Positions 1,960 through 60,515 of a DNA stretch of 64,000 bases are shown in pieces. The stretch's first letter is position 1, and each line of letters starts with the position of its first letter. The notes under the pieces are model-generated. The model saw only the letters and a list, made by a program, of their open reading frames with translations. It ran no database searches and was not told the DNA's origin. The position numbers and the translations under genes are program-made. The stretch comes from Zygnema cylindricum (taxonomy: Eukaryota; Streptophyta; Zygnematophyceae; Zygnematales; Zygnemataceae): contig JBBHKE010002552.1 of NCBI GenBank assembly GCA_037447655.1, positions 218,501-282,500 on the forward strand, given 5' to 3'.

Positions 1960-4900
1960 TCATTCTAAACCTCTCCAGACATAAAGTCGACCACTACTTG
2001 TACCGCCGGCTATGATTGAATTTAAAGAATTTACTGCAACTCTTGCGGGAATTGCTGTCATAAGAGGATCCATTAGTTGGAAACTCTTATTTTCCTTTGA
2101 AGTTGATAAAATGTCGATCGTTTTACTTCGACCACCAACCAAAAGATGACAGCTGTCCCGCATCCACATAGCTCTGCTTCAAGCAAAAACCAATGAAATT
2201 TATTAAGTGCATTTTTTGGTGCGTGTTTTTGTGTGTTTGCCTTTAACACCGTCCATACAAAATGACAAGTCATCACGAAATGTTTGGAGAAACCATATTA
2301 GTTCATGAAAGATTCCTGTCAATCTTCAAACATTTTTTTTAACCATGATAAATGTTTTTTTCAAATCCAATAAAACAAAGGAAATTAGATCGTCTGATTT
2401 CCTCCATCGAACTCCAACATCCTCTCCCTCCTCCCTTTTTACCTGAATGGCGACAACCACCACTCCGATTTGTTGTTGCGGGCTATTTTTTTTGGTCCGG
2501 AAACATTTTCTCCCTTTTTAACCTCTTCTCGTGGCCTTGACTTGGAATCAAATTCATCTAAATTATCCCAAACACGAACATAGTCGTCATAACTGCCAAA
2601 AAAAGGTGAGAGACATGGAAACAGTTTCCATTAGTCATGAACACACTATTGGAAAACATCAGAGCACATTTGTATAATTTCAATTTTGAGGCATTTGAAA
2701 CCACACCTTTCATTGCTATTTGAAAAAGTGTATTATTAGTGTTAAACCAGTATTAGTAATGACTACATTAAATTACGGCTGGATAACGTGCCCAAAAACT
2801 AAAATAGCTTTATTATGTTGGGGGTATTAATTGAAAACATTTTTTTACTTTTAATTTCACCTATTTGAATTCTCTATATTATAACCATTACAAAAACTTT
2901 ACCACCCACTCACCATGTGGATGCGAGAGATTTACCGTTGGGAGAAAAATACGCTGATGTCACTCCTTTATTATGTTTCAAATCGATTAAAGATTTGCAA
3001 CAACTTTTACTTCTTATTTTGGTTTCCATACTTCTAATGTCCCATAGTTTAACAAAATTGTCGGTCGAACTCGTAGCCATGAGATAATCCTTATGTGGGT
3101 GAAAATCAACGGTGTGGATTCTTTTAGTATGGATCTCATGTTTTTTAACCACATTTTTGTCTCTTGTGTCCAATATTGTGAGACTCCCATCATGATCCGC
3201 GAGATAAACAGTGGAAATATTGGAGGAACCTAAACGAAAAGCGGTATATAAAGTGTCGTGACTTTTATGAACTTCACGAAAAATGGAGTGCTCGACATCC
3301 AAAACACAAAGTCTTCCATCGTAGGAACATGAATATAACTGGAAAAACAATGACAAGAAAAAAAAATACAAGGTAAGAGGAAAATATACATACTTTGGAA
3401 GGAAAGAGCGAAGAGTCAAAAACAACATGGGGTTTTCTGGTTTGGCCATAGGAAAAAAAAAATGTTGGGACGTACGGGCGGCAATATTAAGAATATACGG
3501 CTGACGGCTGCCGGCCGTGGCATGATGTCGGTGGCGGTGACCGTTAAATTGGCGCCATTCTGTCCGGACAATATAGTTCGTACTTTTCCTCTTCGCATTC
3601 GGGCAGCATTTTTCAGGATCTCCATTGGAAACTCCGCCGGTTTCAGGAAAAGACAGGAAATTTTGGAGTACAATTGATTACCTTTTAACTGAGAGTGGTA
3701 CGGATTACATGGTATCATTAGATTGGGTCGTTTTCAATGATGACGCCATCTTTATTGTACTGACATCACTGTATCTTTGCTGCGGGTTTGGGATTTGTCG
3801 TTTATCCGTACAGTCTATTCTGAAGTTTTTGAATGGAAAATCGTACAAGTGCACATTCTGGTACGGAATCTGATCATTGTTTCGGTCCTTTCGTAACACG
3901 TGTCTTTCGTGACAAAGCCCTAAATAGTACATACAGCCATTCATGTGGGAGCAGCAATATGTTTAGTACTTTTTGTTAAATACACATTGCCATAAAATAC
4001 TTATCGAAAGTCTTGACCTGTTTTCTTCATATTCCCTACGCCACGTGTCCGGTACGTTTTATTGTTCTGCATTTCGTCAAACGTTGTTAATTTTCAAACT
4101 TAATTAGCCATGATAATCCGGAAAACCCGGAACTCCGAAACGCTTTTGTCGTATAGGACCATAAATAATGTTTTTTCCAAACCGTATTGACTATTGAGTC
4201 CTTTGTGTCAAAAATATATTTTATAGATCTGTTTGTACCCGTTCCAATGAGAAAGTGAATGACTGAGGACCATATTCGTACATTCAGATGTAAGATAAGG
4301 CTTGCTTAAAAAGGAGTAAAAGGGCTATGACTCATGCTGGTCAAGATGACTGTACTATTATGAAAGGTCAGTACGGTAGTCTCTTGTTCGTACAGAATCG
4401 TATCTTTTTTAATTATGCTCAACTGTATAATCTTTTTTTCTAAATTGCAGAGCTTGAACAGGAATTCATTTTACGCAATCTTTTTTTGACACGTGATTGC
4501 AAATGTTATTACATAATCCTATAGGAGAAAAATGTTTAGTCGTCAAAAAGTACAAAAAAAAAGAGTCGATCGCGTAAAGAGAAACCCTAATTGGCTCAAT
4601 TGCTGAAAACCCTAATTGGTTTCGGTTATTCCTTGTATTGTCCTCGATTTCTCTTTTGTTTTTGAAACGCCACGTGTCATTCTTTTCCTATCGACGAATA
4701 TAAAGTTTTTCAAAATCCGCGCTGCGATCGTAGTGTTGATCCACGTGTCAACGCATCCGTCGCGTATAGTACCATTCTATGCGATTTAGCTAACCGAATT
4801 TTCCTAAAAGATACGATTTTGTATCAACTGGTGCGAAAAACTGGAAAGAATAACATGAGAGTATGAGACTGTGCTAAGAAGCGTTAAATAAGACGAAAAT

Positions 4901-47845: not shown

Positions 47846-48236
47846 TTTTGGAATCTTGGATTCGTCCTTATTCTCCTTTGCTAAAACTTTTTTTATTAGT
47901 CTTAGTGCTAGATAACGCAATCTAGTATTATGCTTTTCGTTATCTATTTTCTGTACCTCTGTCTTAGATTCGGATTTAGATATTTTCTTCCTCTTCTTAC
48001 GAAAGGACACCTTGCCCTTTCGTCATGCTAGGAAAAGACAATTGACCCTTCGGGATCACGTAGGCTGTAGGACAGTCTGTCAGAGTGACACTAAGTGACA
48101 CTCTCAGTTTCTACTTTAGCAATTTTTGTTTCATTGTAAAATAACCTTTTTTTTAAACTATTTTGGCAATTATTTTACCTGCCCATTTTCTGTCCTTTTT
48201 GTATTCGTGCCCGCTGCTATGACTATTAATTCAATA
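47846..48236 (+). mobile_element. 5' LTR of copia element C4 (391 bp)
   Basis: Pairs with 51768-52159 (392 bp) at high identity. The first bases are mutated (TTTTGGAATC instead of TGTTGGAATC). Ends TTCAATA before the primer site. Holds the gag ATG at 48219. Flanking GATTT (47841-47845) and GTTTT (52160-52164) resemble a 5-bp target duplication with one change. Confidence 0.82.
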
Positions 48237-49160
48237 GGCTATGGGCCTCTCCCCGTTAGTTCGAATACCGTTGCCAAATTCAATGGCAAGGATTTCTACG
48301 GCTGGAAATTTTCCAGATTGAGCACCTTTTCCGGCGCGAAAAACTTTGGTCCGTTATAAACGGAAGCGGAGGGGAACCTTCCGATGTCGCCGCTAAATCC
48401 GCCTGGCTCGCTAAAAATGAGGAGGCGCACTCTAGGCTGGTTCTCGCCCTTGAACCTTCGCAGCTTGATCTCATTCGTGATGCCACCTCAGCTCACGGTG
48501 CTTGGACGCTTCTGTCCACGGCATATGAGAACAAATCTTGGTCTAACAAACTACTTCTTCGCCGCCAACTCAACACTGCTCAATCCTGCCGAATCTATTC
48601 AAGCCTACATCAACAACATGAAATCTATTGCCGGCCGTCTCAAAACCGTCGATGTTGTCGTCTCGGATGAGGACATCATTTCGGCCATCTTGGGCGGTCT
48701 TCCAACGTCCTATTCGGCTTTTATCTCCTCTATCGACAACTCATCTACAGCTGTCACCATCCCCTCTCTTACGGCCGGTTTACTTCACGAGGAAACTAAA
48801 CACAATTTTTCCCCACCTCCTGGTGTAGCTTTGGCTACTTTTCCTCCACCCAATCGGAGTTCAAAAAATTCCTCCTGTAGGTACTGTCGTGCGCCGGATC
48901 ACGTCATTGACGTCTGCCCGGTACTCAAAAGAAAAAACGACCGTCAAGGAAATTATGGACGTCGGCCTGGACGTGGACAAAAATCCTGGCCGAAATCTCT
49001 ACTCCGGTCACGCATCCAGTGCTGAGGCGATTTTTTCATCCCCCAACGATCCTCTTACGCCAACCAATCCATTTATCCAACCCCTGATCCCCGGTCACCA
49101 AAATCTGCCAGACCATCATTTCCCTCCGGCACTTCCAAAACCTCCAATCCACTCCAATTA
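48219..49160 (+). pseudogene. C4 gag, broken
   Basis: MTINSIGYGPLPVSSNTVAKFNG start, LVLALEPSQLDLIRDATSAHGAW-like block with frameshifts, AGRLKTVDVVVSDEDIISAI region and a CCHC knuckle CRYCRAPDHVIDVC (about 48880-48925). The frame then runs into the integrase region after a large internal deletion at about 49160. Confidence 0.85.
48237..48247 (+). other. C4 primer-binding site, half-tRNA-Met type
   Basis: GGCTATGGGCC, one base different from the copia-type GGTTATGGGCC, immediately after the LTR end and inside the gag frame. Confidence 0.65.
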
Positions 49161-51754
49161 ATCCACTTTGACCTCTGCGGCCCAATGTCCACTCCCAGCC
49201 CCACTGGTGCGCTTTACTTCGTCACTTTCATCGATGACGCAACTCGCTACTCCTTTCTCTATCCCATACGCAGAAAATTTGACACATTTCAAAAATTCAA
49301 GGAGTATAAAGCCCTTGTTGAAAATTTATTGTCCAGCAGAATTCAAAACCTCCGTACAAATAATGGAGGAGAATACTTCTCCAATGAATTCTCCTCATTC
49401 CTTGCAACTCACGGTATCACTCACCAGTCAACGACCGCCAATACCCCTCATCAAAATGGTGTATCAGGGAGGTACAACCGTACCCTCCTCAACATGGCCC
49501 GTTCAATGTTACATTTTCCCACTCTGCCCACCACCTTTTGGGCAGAATCTGTCTCGACAGCGAATTACATTCGCAATCGCTGTCCGACTTCTGCATTACC
49601 TGCTGTTACCCCTTATGAGGCTTGGACCGGCACCAAACCAACCGTATTGCACCTTCGAATATTCGGATGCGATGCTTGGATAAAAGACTTGGCACTTGCA
49701 GGCAAATGGCACAGCCGCGCCAAACACGGCGTCTTTGTCGCCTACAGTACAGAATCCAAAGCTTACCGCATCTGGCTGACAAATGAACGTCAAGTCGTCC
49801 TCAGCAGAGATGTCGCTTTCAATGAAATGCCACTTATCAAAAAAGTCTATGACTCCATGCGTATTTCGACTCCTCCGCAATCTGTCTCATTCCCCGGACC
49901 ATCTACTCTTGCATCCACTGATGCTCTCTCTGTCATTCTCCCTTTAACAAGTCTTACTCCCTCCACTCCTTCTGCAAATCTCCTTTCCTTCCCTTCCTCC
50001 ACTCTCACCAGAACAACTTCTGCATCCCTTCCCCTATCCACACTATCACCCCTCACTCGGACAGCCTCTGATCACTACTCTCTTTCTCCCATTCACCCCA
50101 AAGATCCTCAATACCAAATTCCTCCTTCTGCTCCTGGCCCTCGCCGAAGTGAAAGCCTTCAGGCGCAGCTTCTTACTCATGGAACAGCAAATTCTGCCAC
50201 CATTGCTATTCCCCTTACCTTCTCTGCCGCCATGGCTGGTCCTCAAGCTGCGGAATGGAAAGCCGCCACCGATTCCTAATTTGCGTCTCTCCAACAAAAC
50301 GGCACCTGGGTACTTGCCTCACTGCCCCCTGGCAGAAAAGTAATCGGATCGAAATGGGTCTTTCGGGTCAAAACAAAGTCTGACGGAACTCTTGACCGAT
50401 TCAAGGCCCGCTTTGTGGCAAAAGGATTTCTTCAGAAGGAAGGCGTCGACTTCACGGAGACATATGCTCCTGTTGCAAAATTCACCTCAATTCGGGTTCT
50501 TCTCTCCCTTGCAGCTGCCCAAGACTGGCATGTCCACCACATGGATGTGCAGACCGCCTTCCTTTACGGTTCCCTCACTGAAAAAATCTTCCTCCATCAA
50601 CCGGAAGGGTATGTGTCTCCCGGCAAAGAACACCTGGTATGTCGTCTCCTCAAATCTCTTTATGGCCTCAAGCAGGCTCCTAGAGTGTGGAACAAGCATC
50701 TCGAGGCAATTCTCCTCCGTGAGGGTTTCTCCAAATTAAATGCAGATTTTGGACTGTTCATTCGAGGTACTGCAGACACACTCGTCATCCTTGTCATCTA
50801 TGTAGATGATCTCCTCCTTGCTGGCCCCTCTCTTTCTCTTATTCATCTTGTTAAATTCATGCTCAACACTCACTTCTCAATGTCAGATTTAGGGGAAGTA
50901 GAGTATTGCCTTGGCATTTTTGTCGGTCGGGATCGTCCACTAGGACTCTTTATCTTTCCCAAGAAAAATACATAGGTGAAATTCTGACCCGTTTTTCCAT
51001 GGCTAATTGCTCCCCTATCTCAACCCCTCTAGATCCAAATGTTAAACTCCTTAGACACTCTGGTGGGCCTGTCCCCAGAGATATACATGATCAGTACAGA
51101 TCTATAGTTGGCAGCCTTATGTATGCAATGACTGGAACTCGTCCGGACATCGCTGTAGCTGTTGGCCAGCTTAGTCAATTTGTCTCCAACCCCTCCACTG
51201 ACCACCTCCTTGCAGCCAAAAGAGTCCTGCGCTACCTCCAGGGTACTCGGACTTTGAAACTCACCTTCACCGGCTCCTCTCCTCCAGCTCTCGTCGGCCA
51301 CTGCGATGCCGACTGGGGCGGTGATCTGGATTCTCGTCGCAGCACCACCGGCGTTTGTTTTTCACTCGGCAGCGCTCTTGTTTCTTGGGCATCTAAAAAG
51401 CAACCTACTGTTGCCCTCTCCTCCACTGAAGCCGAATACATGTCTGCCACGCACGCCACTAAGGAGGCTCTCTGGCTTCGTTCTCTCCTCTTAAAAGTGC
51501 AATTCTGTCCATCATCTGCCACAACTATCTTTTGTGATTCTCAAGGGGCCCTTGCCTTGATGAACAACCCTGTTCATCATCGCCGAACGAAGCATATTGG
51601 CATCCATTTTCACTTTACTCGCGACGCCATTGCTGCAGGCACAGTTACTTTCTCCCACTGCCCCACTACTCAACAAATGGCCGACTTTCTGACAAAGGCT
51701 CTTCCTCGGCCACTATTCGAAGCTCACCGGTCCTCCGCCGGCCTCCGTTTCTAG
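49161..51754 (+). pseudogene. C4 integrase, RT and RNase H; protease deleted
   Basis: Begins with IHFDLCGPMSTPSPTGALYF, so protease and pre-integrase domains are absent. Integrase core has the D of HFDLCGP, LRTNNGGEYFSNEFSS (the second catalytic D is N here) and TPHQNGVSGRYNRT. The integrase-linker frame is open 49185-50279 to a TAA where DSEFAS is expected. RT follows (KWVFRVKTK, KFTSIRVLLSLAAA, LVIYVDDLLLAG), then a frameshift near 50940 and an open RNase H frame to TAG 51752-51754. The youngest-looking pol of the cluster but not functional. Confidence 0.87.
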
Positions 51755-51767
51755 CAAAGCGGGGGGG
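51755..51767 (+). other. C4 polypurine tract
   Basis: CAAAGCGGGGGGG directly before the 3' LTR start. Confidence 0.8.
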
Positions 51768-52159
51768 TGTTGGAATCCTGGATTCGTCTTTATTCTCCTT
51801 TGCTACAAACTTGTTTTATTAGTCTTAGTGCTAGATAACGCAATCTAGTATTATGCTTTTCGTTATCTATTTTCTGTACCTCTGTCTTAGATTCGGATTT
51901 AGATATTTTCTTCCTCTTCTTACGAAAGGACACCTTGCCCTTTCGTCATGCTAGGAAAAGACAAGTGACCCTTCGGGATCACGTAGGCTGTAGGACAGTC
52001 TGTCAAAGTGACACTAAGTGACACTCTCGGTTACTACTTTAGCAATTTTTGTTTCATTGTAAAATTACCTTTTTTTTAAACTATTTTGGCAATTATTTTA
52101 CCTGCCCATTTTCTGTCCTTTTTGTATTCGTGCCCGCTGCTATGACTACTAATTCAATA
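51768..52159 (+). mobile_element. 3' LTR of copia element C4 (392 bp)
   Basis: Starts TGTTGGAATCC and ends TTCAATA. Similarity with the 5' copy stops exactly where the 5' primer site begins, which fixes the LTR end and shows the gag ATG (52142) is within the LTR. Confidence 0.87.
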
Positions 52160-54833
52160 GTTTTGTGCTTGAATTCTATCACTTCTACGATACGAGGTGC
52201 GAGGGCGGTTGGGTTGCGGGGGGGAATGATGTAAGGATCGCCTGGATCAATAGGGGATAGAGAGTATGGATTGGAGTTTGTCCGAGTTAGGGGTAATGGT
52301 GTGGCTGGGGAGAAGGATGCACAAGTTCACCTGTGAGAGTAGAGGAAGGCAAGGAAAGGAGATAGTTGGAGGGAGTGGGAGAGGTTTAAGGCAGAATGAC
52401 GGAGAGGGGATCGAAAGGTGCAGAGTAAGAGAGACTTAGGGAAAGAGCAAATGGGGAAGGTGGTGGTAGAAAGATTGAATACTGGTTTTCAAACAGGAGA
52501 GGCGTTTCATTGAAGGCAACGTCATGGCTAAGGACGACTTTGTTCAACCAGATTCTGTAAACTTGTAAGCTTTCGATTTCGTATAGTAACCGACAAGAAT
52601 GTTGTGTTTAGCGCGGCTGTGCCATTTGTCGGCGGGAGCCAGGTCCTTGATCTAAGCGTCGTAACCGAATATTCGGAGCTGAGAAACGTTCGGTTTGGTG
52701 TCTGTCCATGCTTCATACGGAGTGACACGGGTTAACGCGGAAGTCTAACAACGAGTGCAAATATTATTAGCTCTCGTGGCGGATTCTGACAGCGATTGCG
52801 AATAAAATTAGCTCTCGTGGCAGATTTGTGGTGGGCAGAATTGCATACTGTAACATGGAACGGGAAATGATAAGGACGGTGTTGTGAGAAACAGGGAGAA
52901 CTCATTGGAGAAGTACTCCCCCCCGTTGTACGTACGAATGGTTTTAATGCGATTGGACAATTGGTTTTCCACGAGTGCTTTTTAGTTCTTGAATTTCTAG
53001 AAGGTGTCAAATTTTCGTCGGAGAGGATTTTGATGTCCGAATCGAGTGGCGTCATCATGAAGGTGGCAAAGTATAGACCACCTGTGGGACTGGGAGTGGG
53101 ACCACACACGGACTAGGAGTGGACATAGGTCCACAGAGATCGTAATGTGTCAATTGAAGTGGTTGAAGTGGATGAGAAGATTTGGAATCACTGGAGGGGA
53201 ATGAGGGTCTCGCGAGTTTACCCCCAATCCAACTGGAACGAAAGTTTAATTGTTTGTCTTTGAACGGCTCTAAGCCAGTGACAAGGCCTTTGGTTTGTAC
53301 CCCCTTTGGTTAGTTGGTACAGGCAGGATTGGGAAAGGTGGCCATAACGTAGATGCCATTTTGAGAGTGGATGTGGTGAGGAAGGTGGCAACGTTGCCTG
53401 GTCCAGAGGTGGAGAAACAGAGTATAGATGGATCCGGTTTTGATTCCCATTCCAACTGTGCGGTCATTGGTGGAGAAAAGCTTGACGTCAGTTTGGGAAA
53501 AGACTGCCGTGGCAACTTGATTAAGGGCGTCACTGACGGAAAATAAACTCTTCTTAGGGGCAGGGACGAGGAGGACATTAGATAGTGTAATAGAGAATCT
53601 TTTGGGACGAGGAGGACATGAGATAGTATAATAGAGAATCTTTTGGGAGGATCGCTGGCGGTGCAGAATTGTCCAAAATGAGTAGCGGTGAGGGTGACAT
53701 TGTTTCCAACGAGAGTCGCCGTTGGTGGACAATTAGGGGCGATGGTGGTAAATCAATCGAATCGAGAAGAGAGATGATGGGAGGCTCTTGAATTGACGAT
53801 CCAAGAATCGGATGATTCGGTAGAATCGAGGAGGGACGTTGTATTCAAGGCGTAGCCGAATTCGGATGGTGACGATACGTACGGATTGGGCTTGTTGGAA
53901 GTAGGTATCGCCAGATTGGAGTGGGAGGAAGTGGACTATCGGCGTATTGAGGGTACGGATTGGCTGTCAATTGAAAGCGATTGGCCATATATTAGTGAAC
54001 ATATTCAATGGGTTGGACAAATGGATTGGTCGGTGCAAAAGTGTCGTTGGCGGCTGGTAAAATTTCTTCGGCAATTGATGATTTCACAAGAATAGAGATT
54101 TTGCCCAGTGTTGTGTCCATGTCCATCAGACGTCCATAATTTCTTTAACGGTCGTGTTGTCGTTTGAGGATTGGACAGACGTCAATGACGTGGTTTAGTG
54201 CAGAGTGTTAACAATAGGAGGAATTTTTGGAAGTGCGAATGGGTGGAGGAAACATGGTCAAAGCTAACAGTAAAGATTGGGGATAGGGGATTGGGGAAAG
54301 ATTTTGTTTGGTCTCCTCGTGAACCAAACTGGGAGTTAGGGATGGGATGGTGACAACTGTAGAGGAGTTGTCGGTAGTAGAGATAAATGTCAATAGGACA
54401 TCCGAAGGTCCCCTAAGATTGTCTAAATCGAAGACGACACTGATAGTTTTGAGACGTCCAGCAATGGATTCGATTGAGTGGATGTACCCTAGGATTTTTT
54501 TGAGAAGTGTTGAGTTGGCGTTGAAGGAGTAGTTTGTTAGACCACGACTTGTTTTGGTACGCATTAGACAGAAGAGTCCAAGCATTGTGAGTAGATGTTA
54601 CGTCACAGATGAGATTGATCGACGAAGTTTCAAGTGCGAGTACCAGTCGAGAGTGCACCTCCTTATTGCGAATAAGCCGATCGGATTTGGCGGAGGTATC
54701 GCTTCGTTGTCATTGATTACGGACCAAAGTTTCTCACTGTACAAAAGATACTCTTCTGATACTTCCATCCATAGAAATCCGTGCCGTTAAACTTTGCAAA
54801 GGTATTAGATCTAACGGGGTAAGGCCAATAACC
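52160..54833 (-). pseudogene. Copia element C5 gag, protease, integrase remnant (minus)
   Basis: Read from 54851 leftwards: gag start MTSNSIGYWP and KFNGTDFYGWKY, RLVLALETSSINLI, AGRLKTISVV, then protease region (around 53800), pre-integrase, and integrase (GPTPSPTGGLYF near 53100; later RTxGG and KIR-like blocks) to the linker at 52160. Many frameshifts; the oldest-looking copy. C4 is inserted in its integrase-RT linker; the RT continues at 47845 on the other side. A primer site GGTTATTGGCC lies at 54823-54833. Confidence 0.8.
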
Positions 54834-54978: not shown

Positions 54979-54987
54979 AGTGATATC

Positions 54988-55290
54988 TCTATATCCCTCT
55001 CCCTCTCCCTCTCCTTCCCGTCTCCCTGCCCCTCTTTTTCTGCCCCTCCCCCTCCCTCTCCCCCACCCTCACCTTCTCCCTCTCCCTCTCTCTCTCTCCT
55101 CCCTCTCCCTCTCCTCTCACCCTGTCTGATTTTTTGCCAGGTTGCATTTTTCACCAATAGGGATGTTAAAGCAATGGAAGAGTTGACTTGGGTAAGATCT
55201 CTCTCTCCCTCTCCCTCACTCTCCCTCCCTCTCTCTCCCTCTCCCTCCCCCGCCCTCCCTCTCCCTCCCTCCCTCCCTCTCCCTCCCGTG
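54988..55290. repeat. CT-rich simple sequence, two blocks
   Basis: CCCTCTCCC tracts at about 54988-55120 and 55198-55290, separated by about 75 bp. They lie between the C5 LTR fragment and the TRIM. Confidence 0.9.
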
Positions 55291-55412
55291 TTGTTACTGT
55301 TGGAGAACTGTCCACTTTGGACTCCACACGTGTGTATCGCGCTGTAAACTGGTTCGCCAGTGCGCCGCTAAATCGCCGTATAAATTCGGTATTAGGCGCA
55401 TGTGTACACATC

Positions 55413-55484
55413 GGCCGGGTAGCTCAGTTGGTAGAGCTAGTGTACGGTTCACACAGGTCCCGGGTTCGAACCCCGGCTTGGCCA
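55413..55484 (+). tRNA. tRNA-like gene in the TRIM 5' LTR
   Basis: 72 nt that fold as a cloverleaf: acceptor GGCCGGG/CTTGGCC (with two G-T pairs) plus discriminator A; D arm GCTC-AGTTGGTA-GAGC; anticodon stem AGTGT/ACACA (outer pair mismatched); T arm CCGGG-TTCGAAC-CCCGG. Internal promoter: box A TAGCTCAGTTGG at 55420-55431, box B GGTTCGAACCC at 55463-55473, and TTTTT directly downstream (55485-55489). By position the anticodon would be GGT (Thr), but base 33 is C rather than the invariant T, so decoding is doubtful. It is more likely a transcription unit or a tRNA mimic than a working tRNA. Confidence 0.65.
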
Positions 55485-55543
55485 TTTTTCAAAGTTAACA
55501 CTTTGGCGCCCTTGCGATTAGTTGAATATCGCCGATTCTAACA

Positions 55544-55559
55544 TGGTATCAGAGCCAGG
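55544..55559 (+). other. TRIM primer-binding site, tRNA-iMet 3' end
   Basis: TGGTATCAGAGCCAGG, complementary to the 3' end of plant-type initiator tRNA-Met (CCTGGCTCTGATACCA), directly after the 5' LTR. Unlike the copia elements of this window it uses the tRNA 3' end rather than the anticodon region. Confidence 0.92.
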
Positions 55560-55719
55560 GGGCGATGGCAAGCCACACGAGATGGAGTACATCGTGAGGG
55601 GGCGTGTTGGAGAACTGTCCACTTTGGACTCCACACGTGTGTATCGCGCTGTAAACTGGTTCGCCAGTGCGCCGCTAAATCGCCGTATAAATTCGGTATT
55701 AGGCGCATGTGTACACATC

Positions 55720-55791
55720 GGCCGGGTAGCTCAGTTGGTAGAGCTAGTGTACGGTTCACACAGGTCCCGGGTTCGAACCCCGGCTTGGCCA
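55720..55791 (+). tRNA. tRNA-like gene in the TRIM 3' LTR
   Basis: Identical second copy, 307 bp downstream of the first, with the same boxes and the same TTTTT run (55792-55796). Confidence 0.65.
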
Positions 55792-55855
55792 TTTTTCAAA
55801 GTTAACACTTTGGCGCCCTTGCGATTAGTTGAATATCGCCGATTCTAACAGTTAC

Positions 55856-57170
55856 GGTACACACCCAAATATAATTCTCTTAAATACATTTTATTTCTTT
55901 ATTTATTTATTTTCTTTTGTTTTGTTTTTTTCCTTTTTTTTCTAAACCTTTTTTAAGTCCTCTTTTTTTTTTTTTTTCAGGACTAATCTTTAAATTTATG
56001 GAGTATTCCTGAATTTTAAATTCCTATTATTGCATTATTCCAAATACATTTTATTTCTTTCTTTCTTTATTTCCTTTTTTTTTTCTCCTCTTTTTTTTTC
56101 CCCTTTATTTATTTATTTTTTCCTTTTTTTTTTTTTTTTCTTTTTGTTTTTTGTTTTGTTTTTTGTTTTGTTTTTCGTTTTCTTTTTTATTTTCTTTTTT
56201 TTTTTTTTTTTTTTTTTTATTTCAAAACTACTCTCATTTTTATTTCTCAATTTTTTCCTCTTTTTTTTTTCCTTTATTTAATTACATTTTTTTTTCCCTT
56301 TTTTTCTCCCATTACTTATTTATTTTCCTTTTCTTTTTTTTTTTTAATTTTTTTTTCCCTTTATTTAAGTACATTTTTTTTTCCCTTTTTTTCTCCCATT
56401 ATTTATTTATTTTCCTTTTTCTTTTTCTTTTTCTTTTTCTTTTTCTTTTTTTTGGTTTTCGAGATTACTCTCATTTTTATTTCTCATTTTTTTTCCTCTT
56501 TTTTTTTTTTTCTTTTCTTTCTCTTCCTTTATTGTATCCTTTTCCTTTATTTTATTTTTTTTTTCTTTTCTTTATTCATTTTCTTTTTCCTTTTTTTTTA
56601 TTTATTTATTTATTTGTTTATTTATTTTTTTTATTTTTTGTTCAGGACTACTCTATAAATTTTGACGAGGAACATCCGATTCAAGCATTCGAATGTTTGT
56701 GTGGAAGTTCTTTTTGTAGAAGTAAAAAAAAATAAGAAAAAAAACAAAAAAAAAAAAAAAAAAACAAATATGAAAATAAATGATAAATAATTAAAGAAGT
56801 AAAAAGGATAATTCAAAGAAAAATGAATTGTTAAAAAAAAAAAAAAAAAACGAAAAATATTAACGTACAAAAATAAATGTACGGAAATAGCATAAGTCGA
56901 AGGTAGTCAAAAATAATTGAAAAATAATCGAAAATAATCCGAAAAAAATTGAATATAACCGAAAAAATAATCAAAAACAATCCGAAAATAATCGAAATAA
57001 GTGAAATCAAAAGCAAGAAATGAATCAAATCCTGAAAATAAATCTAGCTTTGGGCAAATTATTCCCGAGTTCCACCTCCCTTCCTCTGTTTTTTTTTTTT
57101 TTTTTTTTTTTTTAGTTTTTTTGTTTTAGTAAAGTTACATTTTGAATTGTACATTCAATTCGTACCCGAC
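55856..57170. other. T-rich then A-rich low-complexity DNA
   Basis: About 55864-56650 is mostly T with C (TTTCTTTTT, TTTATTTA). From 56720 it turns A-rich, with AAAATAATCGAAA-like short repeats to about 57010. Two similar segments (GGACTA(A/C)TCT... around 55979 and 56645) and two (about 56230-56300, 56470-56520) suggest internal duplications. No gene. Confidence 0.6.
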
Positions 57171-60404: not shown

Positions 60405-60515
60405 AAGGAATTTGTTGGTCTCGGAGCGGTATATCGAGACCCATCACCGTTGGATAATTGATAAATATCGGTATCGGTTTTATCGCGATAAGTTTTGACC
60501 CGATACATAACACTA
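60405..60515. mobile_element. Degraded end of the TATCGG hAT-like group
   Basis: GGAATTTGTTGGTCTCGG, GTATATCGAGACC, ATAAATATCGGTATCGG and CGATACATAACACTA follow the same order as the right end of the nested element (33750-33862). The matching left end and target duplication are not clear. Confidence 0.6.

Follow-up and report, generated by a model that had tools for sequence, protein, structure and literature searches.

The miniature LTR retrotransposons (TRIMs) closest to the locus described here are the Helenus elements, which have been reported from fungi, animals and one plant as TRIMs with tRNA-derived sequence in their LTRs (Kojima 2024, Biology 13:119, PMC10886601). In the portion of that paper available, the plant host is Selaginella moellendorffii only, with an LTR of 120 bp and an interior of 85 bp, and Pol III transcription is given as unproven for the published members; it was the only paper on Helenus/TRIMp3 that we found in the open-licence literature. 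Ajax, as presented in the same portion, resembles our element in being a TRIM with a Pol III-type promoter in its LTR, but differs in that the promoter is 5S-derived and the hosts are two nemerteans only. A survey of TRIMs in 48 plant genomes records no 5S outside Cassandra (PMC4717578, as far as its accessible text goes) and, since the word ‘tRNA’ is absent from its main text, tRNA-like LTRs were apparently not sought there.

Within the window (the whole 64-kb stretch of Zygnema cylindricum DNA that was analysed), an element of 553 bp at 55298-55850, encoding no proteins, has the following parts:

55293-55297, no strand: left target-site duplication (TSD) GTTAC, identical to 55851-55855
55298-55543, plus strand: 5' LTR, 246 bp, TG...CA, 100% identical to 55605-55850
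55379-55385, plus strand: TATAAAT, its first base 34 nt 5' of the tRNA-like gene; absent from subfamily 2
55413-55484, plus strand: tRNA-like gene in the 5' LTR, 72 nt, anticodon GGT, C33 (ARAGORN, Rfam RF00005, fold)
55420-55431, plus strand: A box TAGCTCAGTTGG in the 5' LTR
55463-55473, plus strand: B box GGTTCGAACCC in the 5' LTR
55485-55489, plus strand: T5 run directly after the tRNA-like gene, putative Pol III terminator (T4 is commonest in the family)
55544-55559, plus strand: primer-binding site (PBS), 16 nt complementary to the 3' end of host initiator tRNA-Met (A73 plus CCA), of the ATCAGAG/CTCTGAT acceptor type
55596-55602, plus strand: polypurine tract (PPT) GAGGGGG, followed by CG before the 3' LTR
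55605-55850, plus strand: 3' LTR, 246 bp
55720-55791, plus strand: tRNA-like gene in the 3' LTR (ARAGORN, Rfam)
55727-55738, plus strand: A box in the 3' LTR
55770-55780, plus strand: B box in the 3' LTR
55792-55796, plus strand: T5 run of the 3' LTR, at which the full-length RNA is predicted to end (from sequence)
55851-55855, no strand: right target-site duplication GTTAC

The two LTRs show no difference from one another, and the 61-bp interior (55544-55604) starts with TGGTATCAGAGCCAGG and ends with GAGGGGGCG. Identical 246-bp LTRs with TG...CA ends, the GTTAC duplication, the initiator-Met PBS, the purine tract and the 61-bp interior had all been described in an earlier, sequence-only reading of this DNA, and all are borne out. 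The same applies to the 72-nt tRNA-like segment with its A and B boxes, both present in each LTR of the window copy: ARAGORN calls tRNA-Thr(GGT) at both positions, and Rfam RF00005 gives a score of 46.3 bits (gathering score 29), these two being the sole tRNA matches returned by either program in the 64-kb window. As to the surroundings, a long CTCCCT-rich tract (54980-55289) adjoins the element on its left, beside a minus-strand reading frame resembling the start of a Copia gag, and a very long T-rich tract of low complexity lies to its right (window 55860-56400 and beyond).

Like SMART and other canonical TRIMs, this is a very short, non-coding LTR retrotransposon, and we know of no small-RNA gene in the LTRs of those elements. 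The likeness to Helenus extends to the tRNA-derived sequence with A and B boxes inside both LTRs (strict A-box and B-box motifs are found in 55/62 and 46/62 aligned LTRs, respectively), to the PBS and PPT at the two ends of the interior, to a 5-bp TSD as in the plant and fungal members (exact here in 10/33 two-LTR units and 12/15 solo LTRs), to a length within 311-1263 bp, to the occurrence of solo LTRs, and to an anticodon often discordant with the best isotype model, as the group is described in the available part of its report (PMC10886601). All of the features compared having been found, we file the element as Helenus, with Helenus-1_SMo compared by description only; on its sequence it is a Helenus-type TRIM, and so a new example of an already published kind, not a new kind of element. 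The sequence-only reading knew of no TRIM with a tRNA-like LTR; the kind is nevertheless already described, as Helenus matches exactly at that level (PMC10886601, same portion); for the window element's own family, we found no published description among the titles and abstract openings of the open-licence literature. Unlike the Helenus of Selaginella, as described in that portion (PMC10886601), it has an LTR of 246 bp and an interior of 61 bp, and lives in another host. Set against Helenus more generally, the family is marked by a PBS for the 3' end of initiator tRNA-Met, in three variants matching host genes, and by turnover of the T run.

With Cassandra it shares a presumptive Pol III promoter and terminator in the LTR, the PBS TGGTATCAGAGC and tandem LTR-interior arrays (PMC7215508, in the text accessible); unlike Cassandra, which has 5S rRNA in its LTR, the window LTRs have a tRNA-like segment and no 5S match (Rfam gives only tRNA). 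The earlier idea of a TRIM analogous to Cassandra, each LTR of which bears a Pol III-type gene resembling a tRNA, has held up across the copies aligned. The internal promoter derived from a tRNA recalls tRNA-derived SINEs (SINE2), which rely, however, on non-LTR machinery (PMC10886601, same portion), unlike an element with identical 246-bp LTRs, PBS, PPT and 5-bp TSD.

Searching the host assembly (352.8 Mb, 2,689 contigs) with the whole element gave 303 candidate places, with the LTR on its own 307, and with the interior 92; in each case 40 were scored. Altogether we examined 40 loci (the window and 39 fetched). Two-LTR units, defined as two LTR matches of at least 225 nt lying at most 120 nt apart, are contained in 31/40 loci (33 units in total); the nine loci left out are L022, L024, L025, L037, L040, L042, L044 and L047, which do not have two such matches, and L032, where the matches are too far apart. 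The LTR alignment accordingly holds 62 LTRs from 31 loci, with L028 and L046 (two units each) represented by their second unit only. The tRNA-like segment is present in 62/62 of these LTRs, a figure that reflects few independent events and under-samples any segment-free LTRs, since the copies were found by similarity and are related. ARAGORN also detects the segment in 8/9 partial loci, and in 0/40 loci are the LTR flanks joined with the segment missing; the sole split match, at L042, has its two pieces 520 nt apart, with the break falling within the segment itself. The suggestion that the tRNA-like is a chance resemblance or a one-off insertion in the single window copy is refuted by these counts, and we give it practically no credence; the question raised by the sequence-only reading, whether other LTR copies carry the segment, is answered in the affirmative.

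Identity between paired LTRs ranges from 100% to 77.6%. TSDs flank 10 of the 33 two-LTR units exactly (5 bp) and four more with a 1-nt shift; for the other 19, some of which lie in tandem arrays, the test gave no match or one only at a shift of at least 3. A search with the LTR (54 rows, 30 loci) added 15 solo LTRs, 12 of them with exact 5-bp TSDs, although L074 and L075 share one TSD sequence, and tandem LTR-interior arrays are seen at L028, L029 and L046. We therefore regard the window element as one member of a genuine, repeatedly copied miniature retrotransposon family, with many separate insertions. L060/L076, considered as a longer relative, proved to be one copy interrupted by an insert of ~1.2 kb at the LTR/PBS junction and was rejected, and viral contigs scanned with the LTR and tRNA-like motifs gave no match.

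How closely does the segment resemble a working tRNA? In the window copy its cloverleaf departs from the norm at A27 facing A43, at C33 and at U37, whereas working tRNAs as a rule have U33 and a purine at 37. Folded alone, the 72-nt segment adopts the cloverleaf; when the whole LTR or the predicted 384-nt RNA (see below) is folded to minimum energy, the cloverleaf is not intact. An element that spreads functional tRNA genes, their product being used by or beneficial to the host, would fit with the ARAGORN calls in 33/39 fetched loci, with Rfam scores above cut-off in 13/16 scanned loci (up to 54.3 bits), and with a group of LTRs (9/62) whose ATGTCTA loop has U33. Against it, residue 33 is C in 49/62 LTRs and residue 37 is T in 58/60 of those with a seven-letter loop; the anticodon changes from copy to copy (GGT, AGT, GGC, GTC and others, called by ARAGORN as Thr, Ala, Asp and others); and the best whole-length identity to a host tRNA is 71% (Asn, Arg) among the 33 distinct ones read. 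We consider such a role very improbable. The Lys-CTT tRNA of the host reaches 68% identity and has TAGCTCAGTTGGTAGAGC in common with the segment. No parent was found among the host tRNAs covered (63 scored of 24,620 candidates, 50 loci read), which include no Thr or Ala gene, so that a parent tRNA may yet exist in this genome. One of the loci read, L088, bears a tRNA-Lys-like gene with a CTA anticodon (ARAGORN: Pyl), ~0.7 kb from a Lys-CTT gene. For annotation the family carries a warning, as perhaps hundreds of LTRs in this assembly could be called as tRNA genes (307 LTR candidates, 40 scored).

Compensatory base changes, which had been put forward as a sign that the cloverleaf is conserved across copies, do not bear this out: in an alignment of 53 rows (43 distinct), a subset of the 62 LTRs, two pairs show two-sided change against 1.5 in shuffles, and we have dropped covariation as proof of a conserved cloverleaf. 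The idea that the element exploits tRNA mimicry for packaging likewise finds no support.

Divergence of the segment was compared between two subfamilies, split by a TATAA motif into 29 and 33 LTRs (the two LTRs of L023 falling on different sides). Positions that differ between them number 4/72 in the tRNA-like and 29/174 elsewhere (Fisher p=0.023), with a p-distance of 0.110 against 0.191 for the rest; the A box differs at 0/12 positions and the B box at 1/11, a degenerate one, the boxes alone giving p=0.33. Conservation of the boxes within subfamilies is weak or absent and was set aside as an argument: in subfamily 1 they are not slower-evolving (139/191 windows as low or lower), and in subfamily 2 only modestly so (11/192). 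Taking together the lower divergence of the tRNA-like between subfamilies, the varying anticodons and the null result for covariation, the segment seems to be retained as a promoter rather than as a decoding tRNA.

The TATA motif bears on which polymerase might use the LTR. Genomic RNA could be made by Pol II from the TATA at 55379, starting at ~55410, in which case the tRNA-like at both RNA ends would be a structured passenger, or a signal for 3'-end formation or packaging, in place of a promoter. The motif, TATAAAT, has its first base 34 nt before the tRNA-like, and the TATA of subfamily 1 would be usable by Pol II; in published TRIMs related to Cassandra, moreover, TATA boxes replace the 5S promoter (PMC10853983, in the part available). 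Subfamily 2, however, has lost the TATA through a 2-bp deletion and yet includes recent insertions, with LTR pairs at L026, L027, L030 and L031 that are 98.0-99.2% identical, so that the TATA seems dispensable for movement, and we reject it as a required promoter for that subfamily. A TATA near -30 also precedes plant tRNA genes (PMC7279448), a motif within 50 nt being found for 22-32% of flowering-plant tRNA genes (PMC11700998; both in the text accessible), and 10/49 host tRNA genes have one by the motif that we applied. The passenger-structure version also lacks the covariation that a conserved RNA structure would lead one to expect. On balance, we think transcription by Pol II unlikely.

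A T run lies near every tRNA-like examined. At +0, directly after the segment, the 62 LTRs have T4 (36), T3 (17), T5 (5), T2 (2), T6 (1) or none (1); within 20 nt 3' of it, a run of T4 or longer occurs in 62/62, including those in which the +0 run is shorter, the longest run there being T4 in 54, T5 in seven and T6 in one. As a control, of 11,592 overlapping 20-nt windows taken elsewhere in these LTRs, 124 contain such a run. Host tRNA genes, a few of which may be organellar or dead, have T4 or longer in the first 20 nt in 19/49 cases and within 40 nt in 28/49, and 67-73% of flowering-plant tRNA genes have one within 50 nt (mean 5.0-5.4; PMC11700998, same portion). The T5 terminator of the sequence-only reading is indeed found directly after both window tRNA-likes, but fails as the family state, being at +0 in 5/62 LTRs. 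Subfamily 1 has its run of T4 or longer at +0. Among the LTRs of subfamily 2, such runs stand at both +0 and ~+10 in some, only at +9 to +11 in others, and only at +0 or +2 in a few, which looks like the gain of a backup run followed by loss of the first, with the polarity inferred and few independent events involved. A hairpin, CAAAG...CTTTG, lies 3' of the tRNA-like in 50/62 LTRs (window 55490-55506 and 55797-55813), and its loop contains the second T run in subfamily 2.

Bringing these observations together, we propose a model that we lean towards as rather probable: a Helenus-type TRIM driven by an internal type 2 Pol III promoter, with read-through of the terminator, priming by initiator tRNA-Met and a Copia helper acting in trans. 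Recruitment of Pol III by the tRNA-like of the LTR is plausible given its boxes; Pol III use, read-through and the identity of the helper are what we infer from the arrangement as a whole. TFIIIC would bind the A and B boxes of the 5' LTR, and Pol III would start near the 5' end of the tRNA-like. Most transcripts would end at the short T run just 3' of it, while a minority would slip past this terminator, a weak one that is mostly T4, and stop at its counterpart in the 3' LTR; the resulting read-through RNA would measure ~384 nt (55413 to 55796), with the order R-U5-PBS-interior-PPT-U3-R and a terminal repeat of ~77 nt. Such an RNA would supply the terminal redundancy needed for LTR reverse transcription, at the cost of reading through the first T run; one running past the 3' T run would serve equally, R still being in place. 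Host initiator tRNA-Met would then prime first-strand synthesis, with reverse transcriptase, RNase H and integrase supplied in trans by a Copia element. We also entertain, more tentatively and as something that may well turn out otherwise, that the T run is a selected and deliberately weak Pol III terminator, one that marks the 3' boundary of R, is maintained close to T4 to allow read-through in the 5' LTR and, if lost, is replaced by a T run ~10 nt further on. If so, the family would have solved in this way the template-length problem that it has in common with Cassandra.

The priming step has left a trace. Host initiator-Met tRNA genes (11 pattern matches, ten loci read, two of the ten being a 5' half only) fall into three acceptor types: two genes pair ATCAGAG with CTCTGAT, two pair ATCGGAG with CTCCGAT, and four have ATCAAAG, one of them with CTTTGAT to match and the other three with diverged 3' ends; the genomic base next after the acceptor is A (the discriminator). 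The first 12 nt of the PBS are exactly complementary to one of these types in 31/44 interiors (8, 18 and 5 by type) and match none exactly in 13/44, rows from one array not being independent. The diagnostic pair AG, GG or AA stands at PBS positions 8-9 in 40/44, and all three PBS types are found in both subfamilies. Each round of replication in LTR elements copies the PBS afresh from the primer tRNA, so that the variants, judged by their match to host genes, are a footprint of initiator tRNA-Met priming in this host. With this readable footprint, its recent copies and its two subfamilies, the family makes testable both the use of Pol III by tRNA-bearing TRIMs and the manner in which an internally started RNA that faces a terminator reaches the 3' LTR; it also adds a host, probably the second from the green lineage, to a group reported from one plant.

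As for the helper, Copia elements make 5-bp TSDs (PMC10886601, in the part available), and two host loci combine a Copia-type gag with a PBS of the 3' initiator-Met type: L138 (20/20 nt), whose gag scores are 26.9 and 29.5 bits (cut-off 27), and L140 (one mismatch). The 5-bp TSD and these two loci together point to a Copia helper. A third pattern match, L139, has no frame longer than 100 aa on the matched strand, and no helper sharing LTR or interior sequence with the TRIM was found. A Copia element does lie in the window, at 47848-52160, with 391-bp repeats that are 97.4% alike, the repeat extending into the start of gag; in its leader stands TATGGGCC, which looks like a primer site for the initiator tRNA-Met anticodon half, and with this half-tRNA type of site it is disfavoured as the helper. 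At a tolerance of one mismatch, TGGTATCRRAGC is confined in the window to the TRIM and to a single site at 60416, which has a mismatch; this is no more than chance. L136 and L137 carry, close to position 1501 and beside a ...TTTCA end, 39 nt complementary to the 5' half of host initiator tRNA-Met, which looks like the half-tRNA primer site of other Copia elements; these loci have no match to the leader of the window Copia at E 1e-3. A search with the Copia reverse transcriptase returned relatives in plants and oomycetes. The host itself reads as green lineage, probably streptophyte: its initiator tRNA-Met looks like that of a plant, and elsewhere in the window a WDR76-like gene fragment (2910-3677, minus strand) matches Diphasiastrum (45%) and Spirodela (33%).
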